A stretch of 64,000 nt of DNA from Plantimonas leprariae (GTDB lineage Bacteria; Pseudomonadota; Alphaproteobacteria; Rhizobiales; Rhizobiaceae): contig NZ_VZDO01000001.1 in NCBI RefSeq assembly GCF_008802405.1, positions 62,001 through 126,000 of the forward strand, given 5' to 3'. The notes below the pieces were generated by a model, which worked only from the letters and a program-made list of their open reading frames with translations, had not been told where the DNA came from and ran no database searches. Both the position numbers and the translations under genes were made by a program. Shown in pieces: positions 10,592-62,436 of the stretch. The number at the start of each line of letters is the position of its first letter. Position 1 is the stretch's first letter.

Positions 10592-11173
10592 ATGTCGAGC
10601 GCGGTTCAGCCCATCCCCGAAAACGAGCGCAGTCCCTTTCCGGACAAGGGCTGGCGGCAGGTCGGCATCGCCTTCACGATGCTCGGCACGGCGGCCGCCA
10701 TCCTCCTCCTGATGGGCCGGCATCCGGTCTGTCCCTGCGGCACGGTGTCCGTGTGGCAATGGTCGCGCGATCCGGCGGAGAACTCGCAGGCCTTCGCCGA
10801 CTGGTACTCGCTCCTCCATGTCGTGTTCGGCATGGCGCTCTTCGCGGGCGTCCGGCGTCTGCGGCCGCACTGGTCGCTCCCGTCCGTGTTCCTCGCCGTC
10901 ATCCTCGGCCATTCGATCTGGGAGGTCGCGGAGAACACGCCGCTGATCATCGGCATCTTCTCCGGCGGGGCGAACGCGCCGCATTACGAAGGCGACAGCC
11001 TCTTGAACTCCTTCGGCGACACGGTGTTCGCGCTCGGCGGCGCGGGCCTGATGCCGTTTCTCCGCTGGCCGGCGGTCGCGCTCGTCGTCGTCGCGGTGGA
11101 AGCCGCCGTCACCTTCGGCGTCGGCGACGGCTTCGTCGTCGGCACGCTCCGGCTGTTCGGCGTCGATATCTAG
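10592..11173 (+). CDS. DUF2585 (UPF0314) inner-membrane protein
   Basis: This 193-residue protein matches the uncharacterised DUF2585/UPF0314 family of Rhizobiales. It has about four hydrophobic segments: residues around 24-41, WYSLLHVVFGMALFAGV, PSVFLAVILGHSIWEVAEN, and the C-terminal VALVVVAVEAAVTFGVG. The motif HPVCPCGTVSVW is typical of the family. The frame is open far upstream, but ATG at 10592-10594 gives a family-like start; its ribosome binding site is poor. The stop TAG overlaps the stop of the HerA-like gene on the other strand through a shared CTAG. No function is known. Confidence 0.85.
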   Translation: MSSAVQPIPENERSPFPDKGWRQVGIAFTMLGTAAAILLLMGRHPVCPCGTVSVWQWSRDPAENSQAFADWYSLLHVVFGMALFAGVRRLRPHWSLPSVFLAVILGHSIWEVAENTPLIIGIFSGGANAPHYEGDSLLNSFGDTVFALGGAGLMPFLRWPAVALVVVAVEAAVTFGVGDGFVVGTLRLFGVDI

Positions 11174-12684
11174 AACTTCGTCGACTGCCGCGCGGCGCGG
11201 CGCGCCCGCGCATCGTCGAGCTTCAGGGGCTTGGCCTTCTGGACAGCGCGCCAGCCGGTGGAGAGGATCGTGACGACGCGGTTGCCGCGGAAGTCCGCTT
11301 CCGCCGTCAGGAGGCCACGCTCGGCCATGTAGCCGAGAAGGAAACGCCCGCGCGAAGGCGAGTGGCTGCCGTAAGCCCGCGCCAGCGCCGCGTCGTCCGG
11401 GCAGTCCGCGCTGTCGCGGGCGGCCCGCGCCAGCATCAGGAACACGCCCTGCATGTCCTCCGGCAGGGCGTCGGACGCGTCCAGCACCGTCTGCCACGCC
11501 TCGTCCGCATCCGCCGCCGTCACGCCGGCCCGCGCGAGGCTCAGCCGACGGCGGAAGGCCGCCATGTCGGTCTCAGCGCCCCGCAGCCGCTTCAGGCGGC
11601 AATGCGTGAGGAAGTCCTGGTAGAGCACCGGCACGGGGCGGAAGGCGGAAGCCGGATCGGCGAGCATCTCGGCGAAGATGTCCTCGACGAGCGCCGCGCG
11701 CTCGGCCTCGCTGCGCTCGTCGTCGGCCTCCGGGGCCGGCTTCTCGCGCGCCGCGACGACGCGGCCGAGAAGATCGTGCGTCGAGACGTGCTCGCGGACC
11801 GGGCGCGACACCGGCGGCGGCAGATCTTCGGCCGGCGCGGCGGCGAAGATCAGGTCGTGCATCGCCTGGCCGCCCGCTTCCGGCAGGGAGAGGAGCGAAG
11901 GGCGGCCGGTGCGCCCGCGGGTTTCCACCGAGCCGATCCGCACCGCCACCGGCCGGCGCGACAGGGCGGGCCCGAGCGCGACGAAATGGCCGGGCTCCAG
12001 GTCGCGGAAGCGCTCGGCCCCTTTCCGGTCCATGCCGAGGAGGTCGGCGGCGCGCGCCATGTCGATGTCGAGGAAGGTGCGGCCCATCAGGAAGTTCGAG
12101 GCTTCCGCCGCGACGTTCTTGGCGAGCTTGGCGAGCCGCTGCGTCGCGACGATGCCGGCGAGGCCGCGCTTGCGCCCGCGGCACATCAGGTTCGTCATCG
12201 CGCCGAGCGAGACCTTGCGCGCCTCGTCCGACACCTCGCCGGCGATGGCGGGCGCGAAGAGCTGCGCCTCGTCCACCGCGATCAGCATCGGGAACCAGTG
12301 GGCGTGGTCGGCCTCGAACAGGCCGTTCAGGAAGGCGGCGGCGCAGCTCATCTGCACCTCGGCGTCGAGACCTTCGAGATTGAGGACCACCGAGGCGCGG
12401 TGCTCGCGGATGCGCAGCGCGATGCGTTGCAGCTCGGCCGGCGTCCGGTCGGCATCGACCACCAGATGGCCGAAGCGGTCGGCGAAGGAGACGAAGTCGC
12501 CTTCGGGGTCGATGATCGCCTGCTGCACGTAGGGAGCGCTCTGTTCGAGCAGCCGGCGCAGGAGATGCGACTTGCCTGAACCGGAATTTCCCTGCACGAG
12601 CAGGCGCGTCGACAGGAGTTCCTCCAGATCGAGCTCGGCGGGCTCACCGTTGGCGACGGTTCCGAGATCGACGGCAACCTTCAT
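11170..12684 (-). CDS. HerA-like ATP-binding protein (COG0433 type)
   Basis: A 504-residue P-loop ATPase of the HerA/FtsK-like group. The Walker A motif GNSGSGKS is at 32-39. DPEGDF at 61-66 is a HerA-like feature and the Walker B region LIAVDEAQ ends at 143. An arginine-rich element RGRKRGL follows at 171-177 and is typical of HerA-type hexameric motors. The C-terminal part (about 330-504) has no domain I recognise. ATG at 12682-12684 (start MKVAVDLG) is preferred to the upstream start at 12774. HerA ATPases often pair with nucleases such as NurA; no nuclease is adjacent, so the DNA-processing role is unproven. Confidence 0.85.
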   Translation of the reverse strand: MKVAVDLGTVANGEPAELDLEELLSTRLLVQGNSGSGKSHLLRRLLEQSAPYVQQAIIDPEGDFVSFADRFGHLVVDADRTPAELQRIALRIREHRASVVLNLEGLDAEVQMSCAAAFLNGLFEADHAHWFPMLIAVDEAQLFAPAIAGEVSDEARKVSLGAMTNLMCRGRKRGLAGIVATQRLAKLAKNVAAEASNFLMGRTFLDIDMARAADLLGMDRKGAERFRDLEPGHFVALGPALSRRPVAVRIGSVETRGRTGRPSLLSLPEAGGQAMHDLIFAAAPAEDLPPPVSRPVREHVSTHDLLGRVVAAREKPAPEADDERSEAERAALVEDIFAEMLADPASAFRPVPVLYQDFLTHCRLKRLRGAETDMAAFRRRLSLARAGVTAADADEAWQTVLDASDALPEDMQGVFLMLARAARDSADCPDDAALARAYGSHSPSRGRFLLGYMAERGLLTAEADFRGNRVVTILSTGWRAVQKAKPLKLDDARARRAARQSTKF

Positions 12685-12799: not shown

Positions 12800-14275
12800 T
12801 CACGCCGCCAGCGCGATCTCCGGAACCGTCTCGCGCACCAGCGCCATGTCGCGGTTGAAGGCCTCGGTTTCCTTGGCCTGCAGGTCCGGGTCCGGCAGGC
12901 GCAGGATGTAGGCGGGGTGCACCGTCACGAGCAGCTTCGTCTCGGCGTCGAGGTCGATCAGCTTCGAGCGCGTGTCGCGGATCGTGACCGACTTGCCGAG
13001 GACGGTCGCGGCGGCCGTCGCGCCGAGCGCGACGACGAGCTTCGGCTTCACGATGTCCCGCTCCATCTCCAGCCAGAAGCGGCAGGCCTTCACCTCGCCC
13101 ATCGACGGCTTCTGGTGGATGCGCCGCTTGCCGCGCGGCACGAACTTGAAGTGCTTCACCGCGTTGGTGACGTAGGCTCGGCTGCGGTCGATGCCGGCAT
13201 CCGCCAGCGCCGAGTCGAACACCTTGCCGGCCGGGCCGACGAAGGGTTCGCCGGCGATGTCCTCCTGGTCGCCCGGCTGCTCGCCGACGAAGATCACCGG
13301 GGCGTCGTCCGGCCCCTTGCCGAACACGGTCTGCGTCGCCGGCTCCCAGAGCGAACAGGCCTGACAGTGCTTCGCTTCCGCCCGCGCCTCGTCGAGCGTC
13401 CGAGGCTGGTTGCCGAGAAGCGGATCCTCCGCCGTCTTCGCCGCGCGTGCCATCCCGATCGTCTCCGCCACCCGTTCGTGGCGCAAACTCGGCAGGGTCG
13501 GCGCGGTTTCCAGCATGCGCCGCGATGCCGCTTCCGCGCCGCGCACCAGCGGCTGGATCAGCGTCGCCTCGGGCAGGTTCTTCCAGTACTTCTTCGGCAT
13601 CTCGGCCTGCATCGCCTTCACCTTCAGCCGGGCCGGATTGAAGATCGAGGCGTAGTAGGTGAGCCAGAGATCCTCCGTCGCGTCTTCCTTCGGCCGGTCC
13701 TCGATCGAGGCGCCGGGCGCGAAGCTCAAATCCGCGCCGTCCCAGTGGACCGAGCGCAGCGGCGTCAGGATGCTCCAGACCATGCCGGCGAAGCGGCGCA
13801 TGAAGAACGGCGCGGTCAGTTCCACGACATGATGGCTCGGCTCGAACCAGGCGATGTAGTGCCGGCCCTCCCCCGTCCCGATCTCGCGGAAGCGCACGAA
13901 GGCCTTCATCTTATGCGCGTCGCGATAGACGGCCTTCTCCATCTCGCGGGCGCGGATCACATCGTCGTCCGAGGCGACTTCGAGCAGGCCCTTCTCCGAC
14001 TGCAGCCGCCAGAGCAGGCGATAGGCGAGCACGAAGCGCTCCGGGTCGGCGTTGCAGACGACGTGCTTCGCCAGTTCGGGAAAGGCCTTCGCGACGGTCA
14101 CCTGCGGCGCGTCGTCCGGCACAGTTTCGGGCAGCGGCTCGGCGAAGAGGCTCGGCGCCTCGTCGCCGACCGTAAAGCTCATCGCGTCGGGCTGCACCCG
14201 GCAAGTGACCGCGCGTCGCGCCGCCTCGCGCCAGCCGTCGAAATCGGCGGGATGGTCGAGGCGGGCGAAGAACAT
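12800..14275 (-). CDS. udgX: DUF4130-UdgX fusion: covalent uracil-DNA-glycosylase family protein
   Basis: A 491-residue fusion. Residues about 80-245 form a DUF4130 domain (the TIGR03915-type protein linked to radical-SAM/UDG pairs). Residues about 290-490 are a UdgX-type glycosylase. The UDG part has HCQACSLW (Cys304, Cys307), the active-site loop GEQPGDQED at 331-339, the UdgX hallmark KRRIH at 383-387 and the C-terminal VHPAYILR at 452-459. In characterised UdgX the KRRIH histidine forms a covalent bond with the abasic sugar after uracil excision; this chemistry is inferred for His387. Only a third cysteine (Cys398) is seen for the iron-sulphur site. ATG at 14273-14275 is chosen over an upstream start inside the neighbour. 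It lies 35 bases after the radical-SAM gene, probably co-transcribed. Confidence 0.93.
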   Translation of the reverse strand: MFFARLDHPADFDGWREAARRAVTCRVQPDAMSFTVGDEAPSLFAEPLPETVPDDAPQVTVAKAFPELAKHVVCNADPERFVLAYRLLWRLQSEKGLLEVASDDDVIRAREMEKAVYRDAHKMKAFVRFREIGTGEGRHYIAWFEPSHHVVELTAPFFMRRFAGMVWSILTPLRSVHWDGADLSFAPGASIEDRPKEDATEDLWLTYYASIFNPARLKVKAMQAEMPKKYWKNLPEATLIQPLVRGAEAASRRMLETAPTLPSLRHERVAETIGMARAAKTAEDPLLGNQPRTLDEARAEAKHCQACSLWEPATQTVFGKGPDDAPVIFVGEQPGDQEDIAGEPFVGPAGKVFDSALADAGIDRSRAYVTNAVKHFKFVPRGKRRIHQKPSMGEVKACRFWLEMERDIVKPKLVVALGATAAATVLGKSVTIRDTRSKLIDLDAETKLLVTVHPAYILRLPDPDLQAKETEAFNRDMALVRETVPEIALAA

Positions 14276-14310
14276 CGGTGAAACTCCGGGCCGGGTGCGG
14301 AGCAACGCGC

Positions 14311-15555
14311 TCAGAACAGCGCCAGTTGCCGGGGCGTCGTGTCGCGGGGCACGAAGTCGAAGCGCAGGTTCTCGCGGTCGGTCGAGTGGCCCGGCGACCA
14401 GTCGCTCGCCACAAGGAATGGCCGCACCTTCTCCACCGACTGGCAAAGCTTCGCGACGTCCCCCAGCGTCAGTCGGCGATGGCGGCGGGTCGACAGGATG
14501 CGCTTCACCGCCTTGGTGCCGAGCCCCGGCACGCGGAGCAGCAGTTCGCGGTCGGCGCGGTTGACGTCGACCGGGAAGCGTTCGCGGTGCTTCAGCGCCC
14601 AGGCGAGCTTCGGGTCGACGGCTAGATCCAGCATGCCTGCCTCGCCGCCCGCCACGATCTCGCGCCGCTCGAAGCCGTAGAAACGCATCAGCCAGTCGGC
14701 CTGATAGAGCCGGTGCTCGCGCATCAGGGGAGGCTTGAGGAGCGGCAGGCGGCTGGACGAATCCGGGATCGGCGAGAAGGCGGAGTAGTAGACACGTTTG
14801 AGCTGGTAATTGCCGTAGAGGTTCTCCGACCGGCCGAGGATCGCGTCGTCGCTCGCCCCGTCGGCACCGACGATCATCTGCGTCGATTGCCCGGCAGGAG
14901 AGAAGCGCTTCGGCTTGGCGCGATCCTTCGCTTCGCCGCGATGGGCCTCGATCTTCGCGCGCAGGTGCCCCATCGAGCGGCGGATGTCGCGCGCGTCCTT
15001 TTCGGGCGCGAGCGCCTGCAGCGACAGGTCGGTTGGCAGCTCGATGTTGATCGACAGGCGGTCGGCGAACAGGCCGGCTTCCTCGATCAGGAGCGGCGAG
15101 GCATCGGGGATGGTCTTCAGGTGGATGTAGCCGTTGAAGCCGTGTTCAAGCCGAAGCTTTCTCGCCACTGCCACCATCTCCTCCATCGTGTGGTCGGAGT
15201 TGCGGATGATGCCGGAGGAGAGGAACAGCCCCTCGATGTAGTTCCGCTTGTAGAAGTCCATCGTGAGCGTCACGACCTCCTCCACGCTGAACCGGGCGCG
15301 CGCGACGTTCGAGGACGAACGGTTCACGCAGTAGATGCAGTCGTAGATGCAGAAGTTCGTCAGCAGGATCTTCAGAAGCGAGATGCAGCGCCCGTCCGGC
15401 GCATAGGCGTGGCAGATGCCGGAGCCTTCCGTCGAACCGATGCCTTTCGATTTCAGCGAATTGCGTTTCTCGGAGCCGCTCGACGCGCAGGAGGCGTCGT
15501 ATTTCGCGGCGTCGGACAGGATCGCGAGCTTCTGCTGAACGGTGAGTGCGGCCAT
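14311..15555 (-). CDS. Putative DNA modification/repair radical SAM protein (TIGR03916 type)
   Basis: A 414-residue radical S-adenosylmethionine protein. The cluster motif CX3CX2C is Cys69, Cys73, Cys76 (CIYDCIYC), set in LLTNFCIYDCIYCVNRS. The N-terminal stretch QKLAILSDAAKYDASCASSG is characteristic of this family. The C-terminus holds a helix-hairpin-helix DNA-binding motif (LLLRVPGLGTKAVKRIL, residues 338-354). Family members are found next to UDG-domain proteins, as here, and are thought to act in DNA modification or repair; the substrate is unknown. It is first in a two-gene operon with the DUF4130-UdgX gene, and a LexA-type site lies 14 bases upstream of its ATG. Confidence 0.93.
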   Translation of the reverse strand: MAALTVQQKLAILSDAAKYDASCASSGSEKRNSLKSKGIGSTEGSGICHAYAPDGRCISLLKILLTNFCIYDCIYCVNRSSSNVARARFSVEEVVTLTMDFYKRNYIEGLFLSSGIIRNSDHTMEEMVAVARKLRLEHGFNGYIHLKTIPDASPLLIEEAGLFADRLSINIELPTDLSLQALAPEKDARDIRRSMGHLRAKIEAHRGEAKDRAKPKRFSPAGQSTQMIVGADGASDDAILGRSENLYGNYQLKRVYYSAFSPIPDSSSRLPLLKPPLMREHRLYQADWLMRFYGFERREIVAGGEAGMLDLAVDPKLAWALKHRERFPVDVNRADRELLLRVPGLGTKAVKRILSTRRHRRLTLGDVAKLCQSVEKVRPFLVASDWSPGHSTDRENLRFDFVPRDTTPRQLALF

Positions 15556-15569
15556 GCGGACAATCTAGC

Positions 15570-15584
15570 GTTCGTGATATGTTC
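15570..15584 (-). promoter_or_regulatory. Putative LexA (SOS) box, GTTC-N7-GTTC
   Basis: The sequence GTTC-GTGATAT-GTTC (GAAC-N7-GAAC on the minus strand) matches exactly the direct-repeat operator bound by alphaproteobacterial LexA. It lies 14 bases upstream of the radical-SAM start codon, where it could overlap the promoter or transcription start. Eight fixed bases are expected by chance about twice in a window of this size at even base composition, fewer at high GC. The match alone is therefore weak; its place before a DNA-repair operon gives it weight. Confidence 0.68.
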
Positions 15585-16371: not shown

Positions 16372-17163
16372 CTAATGCGCCTTGGCGGCCGCGCGCTTCG
16401 TCAGGACCTTGACGAGGTTGGCGCGGTAGGCGCCGGAGCCGTGGAGGTCCGACAGCATGTCGCCGGCATCGACCGTCAGGGCATTCAGGTCGCCGCCGTT
16501 CGACAGCGCCTCGCCGCCCTCCTCCCACAGGAACGCGCCCGACTGCGAAGCGCCGGTGACGCCGACCTTCACGTCGTTCCCGCGCTTCGCGACGAACGTG
16601 CCGCACATCGCGTAGCGGGAAGCGGGGTTGCGGAACTTCTCGTAGCCCGTCGCGTCCGGCGCCTCGAACGAGACGGCCGTGACGATCTCGTTCTCCTCCA
16701 GCGCGGTCTCGAACAGGCCGAGGAAGAAGTCGCTCGCGGCGATCTCGCGGTCGGTCGTGTGGATGGTGGCGTCCATCGCGAGGAGCGCGGCCGGATAGTC
16801 CGCGGCCGGATCGAAGTTCGCGACCGAGCCGCCGATCGTGCCCATGTGGCGCACCGCCGGATCGCCGATCAGGTGCGCGAGTTCGGCGAAGCCCGGGCAG
16901 ACCGCCTTGATCTCCTCCGATGCCGAGATCTCCGCGTGCGTCGTGCCGCCGCCGATCCGCACGCGTCTGCCGTCGACCGCGATGCCCTTCAGCTCGTTGA
17001 TATGGCGGAGATCGACGAGGTCGGTCGGGCTCGCCAGCCGCTGCTTCATCGTCGGGATCAGCGTCATGCCGCCGGAAAGGTACTTGCCCTCGCCGCCGGC
17101 CGCGGCGATCGCTTCCGCCGCCTCGGCGAGGCTGGACGGGCGGTGATAGTTCGTCTGGTACAT
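16372..17163 (-). CDS. coxM: Molybdenum hydroxylase medium (FAD) subunit, CoxM-like
   Basis: FAD-binding electron-transfer subunit of a xanthine dehydrogenase/CO dehydrogenase-family enzyme. The 263-residue product has the two FAD-phosphate motifs: LSGGMTLIPTMKQR at 29-42 and TIGGSVANFDP at 109-119. It is the last gene of the operon coxS-coxL-coxM, 19 bases after coxL. It passes electrons from the iron-sulphur subunit to the electron acceptor. Substrate cannot be set from this subunit. Confidence 0.92.
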   Translation of the reverse strand: MYQTNYHRPSSLAEAAEAIAAAGGEGKYLSGGMTLIPTMKQRLASPTDLVDLRHINELKGIAVDGRRVRIGGGTTHAEISASEEIKAVCPGFAELAHLIGDPAVRHMGTIGGSVANFDPAADYPAALLAMDATIHTTDREIAASDFFLGLFETALEENEIVTAVSFEAPDATGYEKFRNPASRYAMCGTFVAKRGNDVKVGVTGASQSGAFLWEEGGEALSNGGDLNALTVDAGDMLSDLHGSGAYRANLVKVLTKRAAAKAH

Positions 17164-17182
17164 CGTTTCCCTTCCCGTCCCG

Positions 17183-19534
17183 TCAGTTCGCCGCGACCGC
17201 GTGGAGCGCCGCCCAGACCTTTTCGGGAGTCGCGGGCATGGTCAGCTCGTTGTTGCCGATCGCGTCGGTGATGGCGTTGATCACGGCGGGCGGCGAGCCG
17301 ATCGCGCCGGCCTCGCCGCAGCCCTTGAGACCCAGCGGGTTCGAGGGCGAAGGCGTCGACGTGGTCGAGACCGCGAAGTTCGGCAGGTTCGCCGCGCGCG
17401 GCATGGCGTAGTCCATGTAGCTCGCCGTGATGAGCTGACCCGAATCGTCGTAGAGCGTGCCTTCGAGCAGCGCCTGGCCCACCCCTTGCGCGATGCCGCC
17501 ATGCACCTGGCCGTGGACGATCATCGGATTCACCACGGTGCCGAAGTCGTCGGCCGCGACGAACTGCACCAGCTCGACGCCGCCCGTGTCCGGGTCGACC
17601 TCGACCTCGCAGATGTAGCAGCCGGCGGGAAACGTGAAGTTCTGCGGGTCGTAGAACGCGCCTTCCTTCAGGCCGGGCTCCATGCCGCCCGGCAGGTTGT
17701 GCGCGGTGTAGGCGTTGAGCGCCACCTCGTGCCAGCCGAGCTTCCTGTCGGTGCCGGCGACGCGCACCTCGCCGTTCGCGATCTCGATGTCGCCCTCGTC
17801 GGCTTCGAGAAGGTGCGCGGCGATCCGCTTCGCCTTCGCCTCGACCTTGTCGAGCGCCTTGACGATCGCCGACATGCCGACCGCGCCGGACCGGGAGCCG
17901 TAGGTGCCCATGCCGAACTGCACCTTGTCGGTGTCGCCGTGGATCACTTGGACGTTGTCGATGGGCAACCCGAACCGTTCCGCGACGAGCTGCGAGAACG
18001 TCGTCTCGTGGCCCTGGCCATGGCTGTGCGAGCCGGTGAGGATCTCGATCGTCCCGACCGGGTTCACCCGCACCTCGGCCGATTCCCACAAGCCGACGCC
18101 CGCGCCGAGCGAGCCGACCGCCTTCGAGGGCGCGATGCCGCAAGCCTCGATGTAGCAGCTCATGCCGAGGCCGCGCAGCTTGCCGCGGCCCTTGGCCTCC
18201 TCGCGCCGCGCCTCGAAGCCGGCGACGTTCGCCGCCTGCATGCCGGCGTCGAGCGAGGCCTCGAAGTCGCCGGCGTCGTAGCACATGATCACCGGCGTCT
18301 GGTGCGGGAAGGCACGGACGAAGTTCTTCCGCCGGAGCTCGGCCGGCGACAGGCCGAGCTCGCGCGCCGCGGTCTCCACCGTGCGCTCCACGACGTAGGT
18401 CGCCTCCGGCCGCCCCGCGCCGCGATAGGCGTCGACCGGAACGGTGTTGGTGTAGACCGCCTTGACGTTCACGTAGATCGCCGGGATGTCGTACTGGCCG
18501 GACAGGAGCGTGCCGTAGAGGTAGGTCGGCGTCGCGGAGGAGAACAGCGACATGTAGGCGCCGAGATTGGCGACCGTGTCGACCTTCAGCCCCAGGAACT
18601 TGTTGTCGGCGTCGAGCGCCAGTTCCACTTCCGTCACGTGGTCGCGGCCGTGCGCGTCGGTGAGGAAGGCCTCCGTTCGGTCGCTCGTCCATTTCACCGG
18701 CACGCCGGTCTTCTTCGAGGCCCAGAGGCAGACGATCTCTTCCGGATAGATATAGATTTTCGAGCCGAAGCCGCCGCCGACATCCGGCGCGATGACCCGG
18801 AGCTTGTGCTCCGGCGCGACGTTGTAGAAGGCGCTCATCACGAGGCGCGCGACATGCGGGTTCTGCGAGGTCGTCCAGACCGTGTAATGGTCCTCGGCCG
18901 GGTCGTACGAGCCCAAGGCCGCCCGCGGCTCCATCGCGTTCGGCACGAGCCGGTTGTTGACGATGTGGAGTTTCGTCACGTGGGCGGCCTTGGCGAAAGC
19001 GGCGTCGGTCGCGGCCTTGTCGCCGAGTTCCCAGTCGAAGATCAGGTTGCTTTTCGCTTCCGGATGAAGCTGCGGCGCGCCGTCCTTCAGCGCATCCGTC
19101 GCCTGCACCACGGAGGGCAGTTCGGCATAGGACACCTCGACGGCTTCCGCCGCATCGCGGGCTTGGCTCCTCGTCTCGGCCACCACCACGGCGACCGCCT
19201 GCCCGACATGCCGGACGGTGCCGACCGCGAGCGCCGGCCAGGCGCCCATGTTCATCGGCGAGCCGTCCTTCGAGGTCACCGCCCAGCCGCAGATCAGGTT
19301 GCCGATGCCGTCGGCCTGCAGTTCCGGCCCGGTCAGCACGGCGATGACGCCCGGCATGGCCTTCGCGGCCTCGGCGTCGATGCCGGACAGCGTCGCGTGG
19401 GCGTGCGGCGAGCGCACGAAGGCCGCGTACTTCATGCCCGGCACCACCATGTCGTCGGTGTAGCGCCCGCGCCCGGTGATGAAGCGCCGGTCCTCTTTTC
19501 TGAGGACGCTGGCGCCGATGCCTTCGATACCCAT
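17183..19534 (-). CDS. coxL: Molybdenum hydroxylase large subunit, form II CoxL type
   Basis: The 783-residue catalytic subunit holds the molybdopterin-cytosine-dinucleotide cofactor. Family features include DVGGGFGSK at 251-259, the active-site loop AYRGAGR at 369-375 and the base glutamate in GCGEAG (Glu741). True form I CO dehydrogenases have AYXCSFR with a catalytic cysteine. AYRGAGR is the form II loop, whose members act on various aromatic, heterocyclic or aldehyde substrates or are of unknown substrate. The gene order S-L-M is also that of form II. The start ATG at 19532-19534 gives the usual N-terminus [21 protein letters not shown] in shortened form (first residues only cited). CO oxidation should not be assumed. 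Confidence 0.93.
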
Positions 19535-61615: not shown

Positions 61616-62436
61616 CGCAGCGTCGGCATGACGTAGCGCGCCGCGAGACCCTGTGCGCCGAGCGCCTCGCCGATGCCCGCCCCCAGTTCGTCGCGGTGGA
61701 CGCCCTCGGCGATGAGGAGCACGTCGACGCCGTAGTCGTTGGCGCCGCGGATGTCGGTATGGAGGCCGTCGCCGATCGCGAGCACCGCGGTCGGCCGCCC
61801 GGCGGTGCCCGCTTCCCGCGCCGCCAGATCGTAGATCGGGCGATAGGGCTTGCCCGCCATCGCGACCGCGCCGCCCTCCGCCCCGTAGGCTTTCGCGAGC
61901 GCGCCGGCGCAGAAGATCAGCTTCGCGCCGCGATGCACGACGACGTCCGGGTTGGCGCAGACCATCGGCAGGTTGCGCTCGCGCAGCCGCGCCAGAAGCT
62001 CGGCGTAGTCGTCCGGCGTTTCCGTCTCGTCGTCGAAGAGACCGGTCGCGACGATCGTCTCCGCCTCCGCCTCCCCGACGAAATCGACCTCGATACCGGT
62101 GAAGATGTCCTTGTTGCGCTCCGGCCCGATGTGGAAGAGCCGCCGCGGGCCGGAGGCGATGAGGTCGCGCGTGACATCGCCGGAGGTGACGATCCGGTCG
62201 TAGGCTTCCCGCGAGAAGCTCAACGAATCGAGCTGGCGCGCGACGCCTTCCAAGGGTCGCGGCGAGTTCGTCAGCAGCACCACGGTGCGGCCGGCCTGCC
62301 GCGCCTGCCGGAGCGCCGCCTCGGCGGCGGCGTGCTTCTCGACGCCGTCGTGGATGACGCCCCAGACGTCGCAGAAGATCGCCTCGTAGCGCGGAACCAC
62401 GGTGCCGAGGTCGGCGATGGCTTCGGGAGCGGTCAT
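61612..62436 (-). CDS. TIGR01459-type HAD-superfamily hydrolase
   Basis: A 274-residue class IIA HAD-like phosphatase. Motif I reads CDVWGVIHDG (about 22-31), so the usual second aspartate of DXD is Trp-Gly-Val, as is normal for this subfamily. Motif II is LLTNSPRP. MAGKPYRPIYD and IGDGLHTDIRGANDYG are motifs III and IV. Substrate unknown. It leads the HAD-ribF pair and is divergent from groESL, an order common in Rhizobiales. Confidence 0.93.
   Translation of the reverse strand: MTAPEAIADLGTVVPRYEAIFCDVWGVIHDGVEKHAAAEAALRQARQAGRTVVLLTNSPRPLEGVARQLDSLSFSREAYDRIVTSGDVTRDLIASGPRRLFHIGPERNKDIFTGIEVDFVGEAEAETIVATGLFDDETETPDDYAELLARLRERNLPMVCANPDVVVHRGAKLIFCAGALAKAYGAEGGAVAMAGKPYRPIYDLAAREAGTAGRPTAVLAIGDGLHTDIRGANDYGVDVLLIAEGVHRDELGAGIGEALGAQGLAARYVMPTLR

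Follow-up and report, generated by a model that had tools for sequence, protein, structure and literature searches.

Which task unites a radical S-adenosylmethionine (radical-SAM) protein with a DUF4130-UdgX fusion protein in Plantimonas leprariae? The two genes lie in a 64-kb stretch of contig NZ_VZDO01000001.1 (64,000 nucleotides, positions 62,001 to 126,000; here called the window). A first-pass annotation of its letters had read them as an uncharacterised DNA-damage module whose three parts act on one substrate, the radical enzyme processing the lesion or the crosslinked UdgX. We compared the pair with relatives in other genomes (G numbers) and loci (L numbers) and found that the window locus represents a two-gene DNA-damage operon that is widespread in bacteria. 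On balance, we think it probable that the radical-SAM protein and DUF4130 form an SOS-induced, clamp-docked pair that would process DNA lesions, with UdgX as an optional cap for abasic sites.

The two genes and their products

14311..15555, minus strand: radical-SAM protein of 414 residues, TIGR03916 (rSAM_link_UDG), by NCBIfam profile match
15328..15351, minus strand: CX3CX2C (Cys69, Cys73, Cys76), SAM-binding [4Fe-4S] site, invariant in both alignments of relatives
12800..14275, minus strand: DUF4130-UdgX fusion protein of 491 residues, by open reading frame (ORF) and NCBIfam/Pfam domains
13565..14254, minus strand: DUF4130 domain (TIGR03915), residues 8-237, 226.3 bits against a cut-off of 112.25
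12836..13561, minus strand: UdgX domain (TIGR03914), residues 239-480, with GEQPG (motif A with its Gln) at 331, 328.5 bits against a cut-off of 189.95
13115..13129, minus strand: KRRIH R-loop (residues 383-387) with the nucleophile His387, exact motif

What had been observed at this locus was confirmed. NCBIfam scores over cut-off bear out a radical-SAM gene followed by one that joins DUF4130 to UdgX, and the 35-base intergenic gap, the positions of Cys69/73/76 and KRRIH with His387 were all exact when the letters were read again. For the fusion protein, the length of 491 residues takes the ATG at 14275 as the start; in the mechanical ORF list the frame opens further upstream, at a TTG. The radical-SAM protein scored 573.5 bits with TIGR03916 (cut-off 343.5; residues 6-403 on profile positions 1-397 of 415) and 31.7 bits with Pfam Radical_SAM PF04055 (cut-off 29.5). 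A structure search with its predicted model returned 74 Protein Data Bank (PDB) matches at an expect value (E) <= 0.001 for the radical-SAM fold, among them HydE, PFL activase, biotin synthase and LIAS. For the fusion protein, Pfam gave 142 bits for DUF4130 PF13566 (cut-off 27) and 109.6 bits for UDG.

A core of radical-SAM protein and DUF4130

We surveyed 249 Pseudomonadota genomes, some of them drafts, with profile models over their curated cut-offs. The radical-SAM protein was found in 39 genomes, DUF4130 in 41 and UdgX in 38. All 39 radical-SAM genomes carried DUF4130, and 10 of them lacked UdgX over cut-off (G099, G183, G023, G046, G074, G082, G190, G196, G225, G237). Conversely, 29 of the 38 UdgX genomes carried the radical-SAM gene and nine did not (G055, G051, G071, G171, G139, G154, G213, G200, G217); seven of these nine were also without DUF4130 over cut-off. 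Thus, the supposed linkage of all three parts, for which a co-occurrence survey had been suggested, holds for the radical-SAM protein and DUF4130 (39/39 genomes, 112/112 loci on the same strand) and fails for UdgX, which is separable in both directions. The suggestion that the radical enzyme processes the UdgX lesion or crosslink fares poorly on the same counts: since UdgX is optional, the enzyme is probably not there for removing a UdgX-DNA crosslink.

Gene order is equally tight. Wherever both genes could be placed (112 loci, script-called starts) they shared a strand, and in 103 of these loci the gap between them was at most 60 bases (median -1 base). Five of the 117 loci stand outside this count because DUF4130 was absent from the stretch (L035, L116, L118, L017, L020). 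Of the 80 named loci, nearly all of them alphaproteobacterial, 72 had a UdgX match, fused to DUF4130 or alongside it. In Bacteroidota, Clostridia, Fusobacterium and Acinetobacter, the pair was found with no UdgX match in the stretch (L111-L115, L117). L116 and L118, which gave no DUF4130 by tblastn, and L119, with no radical-SAM gene in its stretch, are not part of that statement; L113 and L117, which seem almost the same, each entered the counts. Mapped onto a FastTree phylogeny built from the radical-SAM protein (96 with UdgX, 19 without), UdgX presence changes at least six times; here L035, L116 and L118 were left out, and the states of eleven short loci were assigned manually from the UdgX genome profile search. 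The window's own genome (L006) was excluded from the motif, 109-relative operator, tree, and strand and gap counts, and included among the 30 genome-search loci. Co-occurrence, the changes in UdgX and the shared strand therefore argue for a core of radical-SAM protein and DUF4130, to which UdgX would be a module repeatedly gained or lost.

The pair is present in at least four phyla (Pseudomonadota, Bacteroidota, Bacillota, Fusobacteriota). Outside Pseudomonadota, this evidence comes from L111, L112, L114, L115, L116 and L118 and from named control genomes. Among the controls, Bacteroides ihuae gave matches to the models for the radical-SAM protein and DUF4130 but none to UdgX, and Caulobacter vibrioides matched all three, the matches not being resolved as to passing each cut-off. 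In C. vibrioides OR37 (L081), of the same species as the laboratory strain Caulobacter crescentus, all three parts are accompanied by a LexA-type box and a radical-SAM protein that ends in QLSLF.

Traces of loss were visible by BLAST in front of intact UdgX: 38 residues of DUF4130 in G071, pieces of 21 and 13 residues in G051, and 16 residues (E 5e-4) in G055; no such relic was found before UdgX in G171. The relic and UdgX of G071 are immediately preceded by a LexA-type box, whereas the other UdgX-only stretches, L124-L126 and L129-L132, contain no exact box. At L123:1307-2173 such a box directly precedes a 281-residue UdgX protein that bears a DUF4130 relic; the arrangement looks like what was left when the radical-SAM gene and the greater part of DUF4130 disappeared.

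LexA-type operators

15570..15584, minus strand: LexA/SOS box of the alphaproteobacterial type, GAAC-N7-GAAC (GAACATATCACGAAC), exact match

This box spans -15 to -29 relative to the radical-SAM start codon. Passages of PMC3323433 give the alphaproteobacterial LexA motif as GTTC-N7-GTTC and were also the source of the other operator types tested. Of 109 relatives (the window's own copy excluded), 100 had an exact box in the 250 bases ahead of the ortholog. The corresponding rates were 0.9% for upstream sequence after Markov resampling and 10 of 641 for other mechanical ORFs at least 300 residues long, some of which are surely not genes. By source, these boxes were found at 25 of the 30 genome-search loci (the window's included) and at 76 of the 80 named loci, against 29 matches in 1,200,133 bases of control DNA. 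LexA-type operators ahead of the radical-SAM gene are thus conserved, which upholds the assignment to a DNA-damage module, and LexA would be expected to bind them.

Some loci without the exact box carry other candidate operators. The exact box was absent from all eight of L111-L118, and the Clostridia locus L112 has two perfect GAAC-N4-GTTC sites. Three of the five box-less loci among L001-L030 (L021, L024, L030) have a perfect CTGT-N8-ACAG instead, and three of the four box-less named loci (L041, L068, L101) show the box with one mismatch. One-mismatch operator matches at L115, L116 and L118 are possibly due to chance.

A clamp-type motif at the C-terminus

14314..14328, minus strand: QLALF, residues 410-414, candidate beta sliding-clamp-binding motif at the C-terminal end

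The radical-SAM protein ends in QLALF. The beta sliding-clamp consensus is QLxLF and is often C-terminal, as described in part of PMC4549789. Within the last 40 residues, Q[LM]xL[FLIW] was present in 98 of 117 radical-SAM relatives (L006 left out), most commonly as QLSLF (38); in 82 of the 117 it formed the very end of the protein. The same pattern occurred in 0.9% of shuffled tails, four times in 43,625 residues elsewhere in the same proteins and in 2 of 681 other mechanical ORFs, and just 1 of 113 DUF4130(-UdgX) proteins had a clamp-type motif. Most of the 19 misses carry a closely similar sequence (QLGFGF, QLSLAL, QMALAL, QMAFAL, QLSLGF, QLILPF, QLSFF, QADLF, QASLF, QGSLF, QPRLL). A looser pattern, defined only after inspection of these misses, fits 18 of the 19 and hence 116 of 117 relatives, and 6% of shuffled tails; the sole misfit, L115, has QLSIF followed by 15 more residues. 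Residues 406-414 have a predicted local distance difference test score (pLDDT) below 50 in the predicted model. The tail is a likely docking tag for the sliding clamp. To our knowledge, no radical-SAM enzyme has been described as a sliding-clamp client, and a literature search combining sliding clamp with radical SAM returned nothing on such a client in titles and abstract openings.

Additional cysteines and a candidate helix-hairpin-helix

15385..15489, minus strand: residues 23-57, possible second iron-sulphur (Fe-S) cluster with Cys23, Cys48 and Cys57 (and also His49) as its candidate ligands, by conservation
14482..14571, minus strand: helix-hairpin-helix motif, residues 329-358, PF12836 below its gathering cut-off

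Besides the SAM motif, three cysteines stand out. Cys23, Cys48 and Cys57 were all invariant in 49 aligned relatives and were kept in 13 of 14 proteins of a cross-phylum set, with L116 as the sole exception; the stretch 23-58 has a pLDDT below 50 in the predicted model. This conservation suggests a second Fe-S cluster, which may have a free iron site. Further along the protein, PF12836 (HHH_3) matches with E 4.7e-5 but a bit score below its cut-off.

The exception, from Gemmatirosa (L116:6004-7266), is about 35% identical to the radical-SAM protein of the window. It keeps CX3CX2C and has QLSLW near its end, lacks Cys23/48/57, and no DUF4130 match was found within 6 kb; perhaps it represents a separate subfamily.

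The DUF4130-UdgX protein

The UdgX part matches M. smegmatis UdgX in the PDB (6ail, E 1.5e-47), with which it has the KRRIH R-loop and GEQPG in common. The entry 6AIL is MsmUdgX, for which the roles of the R-loop and His109 are known (PMC10359453, in the portion consulted). The solved chains, UdgX proteins of 205-229 residues, differ from the window's UdgX, which follows DUF4130 within one chain. Among 88 fusion-like relatives, GEQPG was found in 87 and exact KRRIH in 42; 20 of the other 46 were printed, of which 18 have near forms (such as KRRLH, KIRLH, KFRLH and KKRIH) and two have no match to the pattern.

An AlphaFold2 model of DUF4130 (residues 1-250) reached a mean pLDDT of 91.4. Arg128, Arg161 and Arg216 were invariant across 15 diverse sequences, fitting a possible role in DNA or phosphate binding. 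Compared with the PDB, the model gave no match at E <= 0.001 (best E 0.018, with low TM-scores). Family II pyrophosphatases, RecJ and other NrnA-like proteins, which share the DHH fold, make up many of the top weak matches; a DHH-type likeness of DUF4130 would be a lead and not a result.

A model for the pair and its alternatives

From family identities, co-occurrence and coupling, operators, the clamp-type motif, the extra cysteines, the optional UdgX and the placement at imuB-dnaE2 operons, we infer the following course of events. LexA would repress the operon, which would be made upon DNA damage. The radical-SAM enzyme would bind DNA through its candidate helix-hairpin-helix, and the QLxLF tail at its C-terminus would dock it on the beta sliding clamp, which would bring it to replicating DNA or to DNA under translesion synthesis. 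Together with DUF4130, its near-obligate partner, it would form a core that acts by radical chemistry on a DNA lesion or on the DNA at lesion sites, probably with the help of the second Fe-S cluster held by Cys23/48/57. UdgX may be an added module for the same sites, where it would excise uracil and covalently cap the resulting abasic site. We advance a more specific version only tentatively, as possible: a clamp-riding, two-cluster, SOS-induced radical-SAM repair enzyme that works with DUF4130 at stalled or translesion forks, UdgX having been repeatedly recruited as a suicide cap for abasic sites.

The tail, the SOS-type operators and, in some lineages, the placement at imuB-dnaE2 indicate where and when the pair may act. 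Given a core pair with an optional UdgX, uracil or UdgX adducts should not be the sole substrates considered. Simple mutants are on offer: truncation of the tail and changes of Cys23/48/57, Cys69/73/76 and His387.

The pair might alternatively be an accessory of the ImuA-ImuB-DnaE2 mutasome, sharing its clamp and preparing or cleaning translesion sites (for example uracil or abasic sites) without independent lesion reversal. This mutasome associates with the sliding clamp; it shares LexA-type control with the pair, where the boxes predict it, and in some lineages the two share loci. By tblastn, six of the 80 named loci (L083, L090, L094, L098, L105, L109) have relatives of ImuA, ImuB or DnaE2 within flanks that reach up to 6 kb, and so do 4 of the 30 unnamed loci, whose flanks span about 1.5 kb (L011-L014; L012 only through an edge piece). 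In L098 an imuA-like gene, imuB, the radical-SAM gene, DUF4130-UdgX and dnaE2 share one strand, with the module between imuB and dnaE2; NCBIfam, with a score over cut-off, identifies this dnaE2 as encoding an error-prone DNA polymerase, and imuB matches Pfam IMS domains. L090 has the order of L098, with dnaE2 cut by the locus end, and L105 shows the imuB side and ends before dnaE2; imu genes are adjacent in L083, L094, L109, L011, L013 and L014 as well. G217 and G200, the two genomes with DUF4130-UdgX and no radical-SAM gene, show it next to an imuA-like gene (the one in L128 was recognised by eye only): at L127:1550-3990 and L128:123-2675 the two genes diverge, and a LexA-type box separates them. 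All this fits an accessory role, as do the LexA-type boxes and the clamp-type tail, but the flanks of 74 of the 80 named loci and the entire 64-kb window are without any imu match. Moreover, the mutasome contains a polymerase and the window's operon encodes none, and the name ImuA is presumptive for the imuA-like genes, being given from position; two such proteins (that of L098 among them) matched no NCBIfam or Pfam model. We regard the accessory role as unlikely.

A lower probability still attaches to a radical-SAM protein that serves as a maturase, modifying or activating DUF4130 as the actual DNA enzyme. Many radical-SAM enzymes act on a single partner protein, and 39 of the 41 DUF4130 genomes have the radical-SAM gene; however, the two others retain DUF4130-UdgX without it, and the candidate helix-hairpin-helix and the clamp-type tail reside on the radical-SAM protein, with the tail motif all but missing from DUF4130 proteins as counted above. 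We consider such a maturase improbable. The least probable alternative, and one we judge very doubtful, is a single obligate pathway of three parts, with the covalent UdgX-DNA adduct as what the radical-SAM enzyme would resolve or modify. In its favour, the catalytic loop is intact here and most named loci have a UdgX match. Against it, 10 of 39 radical-SAM genomes are without UdgX and 9 of 38 UdgX genomes without the radical-SAM gene, intact UdgX persists behind DUF4130 relics in G071, G051 and G055 (and with no relic in G171), and plasmid records number 393 with UdgX (E 1e-30) versus 158 with the radical-SAM gene (E 1e-5).

Several points weigh against the preferred reading of an SOS-induced, clamp-docked core pair. 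Its support comes from sequence and model analysis. The clamp motif is only five residues long and the looser pattern for the misses was set post hoc; the helix-hairpin-helix match (23.8 bits) falls below the Pfam gathering cut-off of 27. In the window taken by itself the box is not above chance (3 found versus 1.89 expected by shuffling). Even with one mismatch allowed, the three operator types were not found at L001, L018, L111, L113, L114 or L117, and L099 has just a one-mismatch GAAC-N4-GTTC, 291 bases upstream. Neither the radical-SAM nor the uracil-DNA glycosylase gene was found in the main text of the SOS papers PMC12700426, PMC6473078, PMC12907096 and PMC4211646, and the radical-SAM gene was not found in the main text of PMC3323433. 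The partnership with DUF4130 is not absolute, because G217 (on one contig) and G200 keep DUF4130-UdgX without the radical-SAM gene; in G229 (L017) and G241 (L020) DUF4130 lies about 3 kb from the radical-SAM gene on the same strand, and L035 (Jiella pelagia) has no DUF4130 within 6 kb. Finally, the counts are not independent trials, because the relatives are mostly Alphaproteobacteria and related to one another.

At the Jiella pelagia locus a LexA-type box accompanies the radical-SAM gene, and UdgX, too, gave no match within 6 kb.

Relation to described systems

The label 'uncharacterised' is apt for the reaction and not for the gene association, which has been described. We take COG4277 to be the TIGR03916 radical-SAM family. 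NCBI model names already link the parts (rSAM_link_UDG, SAM_7_link_chp, UDG_fam_dom), and NCBI family naming reads 'putative DNA modification/repair' with no reaction given. In the sections consulted, a 2013 paper associates SplB-like radical-SAM photolyases with DUF4130 (PMC3765255), and a 2021 paper predicts SOS control of a two-gene COG1573-COG4277 (UDG-COG4277) operon in Bacteroidetes, citing Verrucomicrobia and Alphaproteobacteria for such SOS-controlled operons (PMC8565304). The TIGR03916/15/14 set and the COG1573-COG4277 operon bring together the same families as here; the window copy differs in its DUF4130-UdgX fusion. Gene association and SOS control are thus already known and we claim priority for neither. 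What we add is the conservation of the operators, the clamp-type tail, the conserved Cys23/48/57, and loci that adjoin or lie inside an imuB-dnaE2 operon. The tail, the cysteine set and the dispensability of UdgX were not found in the passages on this gene set in PMC8565304 and related sources, and a literature search joining UdgX with radical SAM found no paper.

Spore photoproduct lyase (SplB) is likewise a radical-SAM enzyme in DNA repair. The window protein differs from it in bearing a candidate helix-hairpin-helix (PF12836, below cut-off) and a clamp-type tail. An identity with spore photoproduct lyase is not supported: none appeared among 13 NCBIfam matches (E <= 1) or the 50 PDB matches listed; a lower-ranked structure match is possible because there were 1273 PDB matches at E <= 10.

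Mobile elements and neighbouring genes

We rejected a role in anti-phage defence (no PADLOC family for either protein at E <= 0.01) and a mobile or phage origin (PHROG matches no better than E 0.004). In the viral_contigs collection, the profile query found two loci, one of which was recovered again with the window protein; the L111 and L112 proteins as queries found none. In the 'phages' collection, the radical-SAM protein has matches in 10 records and DUF4130 in 6; these are for the most part fecal contigs that carry no annotation. The contig named as an 'Acinetobacter phage' does little to show that a phage carries the gene, because glyS and glyQ adjoin the pair. Bacteroides phage BKO1-TP1 has an annotated DUF4130 protein of 172 residues at one end, with no radical-SAM match in the 6.5 kb examined. 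The sources of L113 and L117, an 'A. baumannii plasmid' record of 3.66 Mb and an 'Acinetobacter phage' contig, both seem chromosomal by size or gene content.

In the window, a HerA-type ATPase gene (12684..11170, minus strand; PF01935, E 1.1e-8) lies downstream of the operon. Upstream are genes for the large subunit and the FAD subunit of a molybdenum hydroxylase (19534..16372, minus strand), which presumably resemble a carbon-monoxide dehydrogenase set, and a BA14K-like gene stands between these and the operon.

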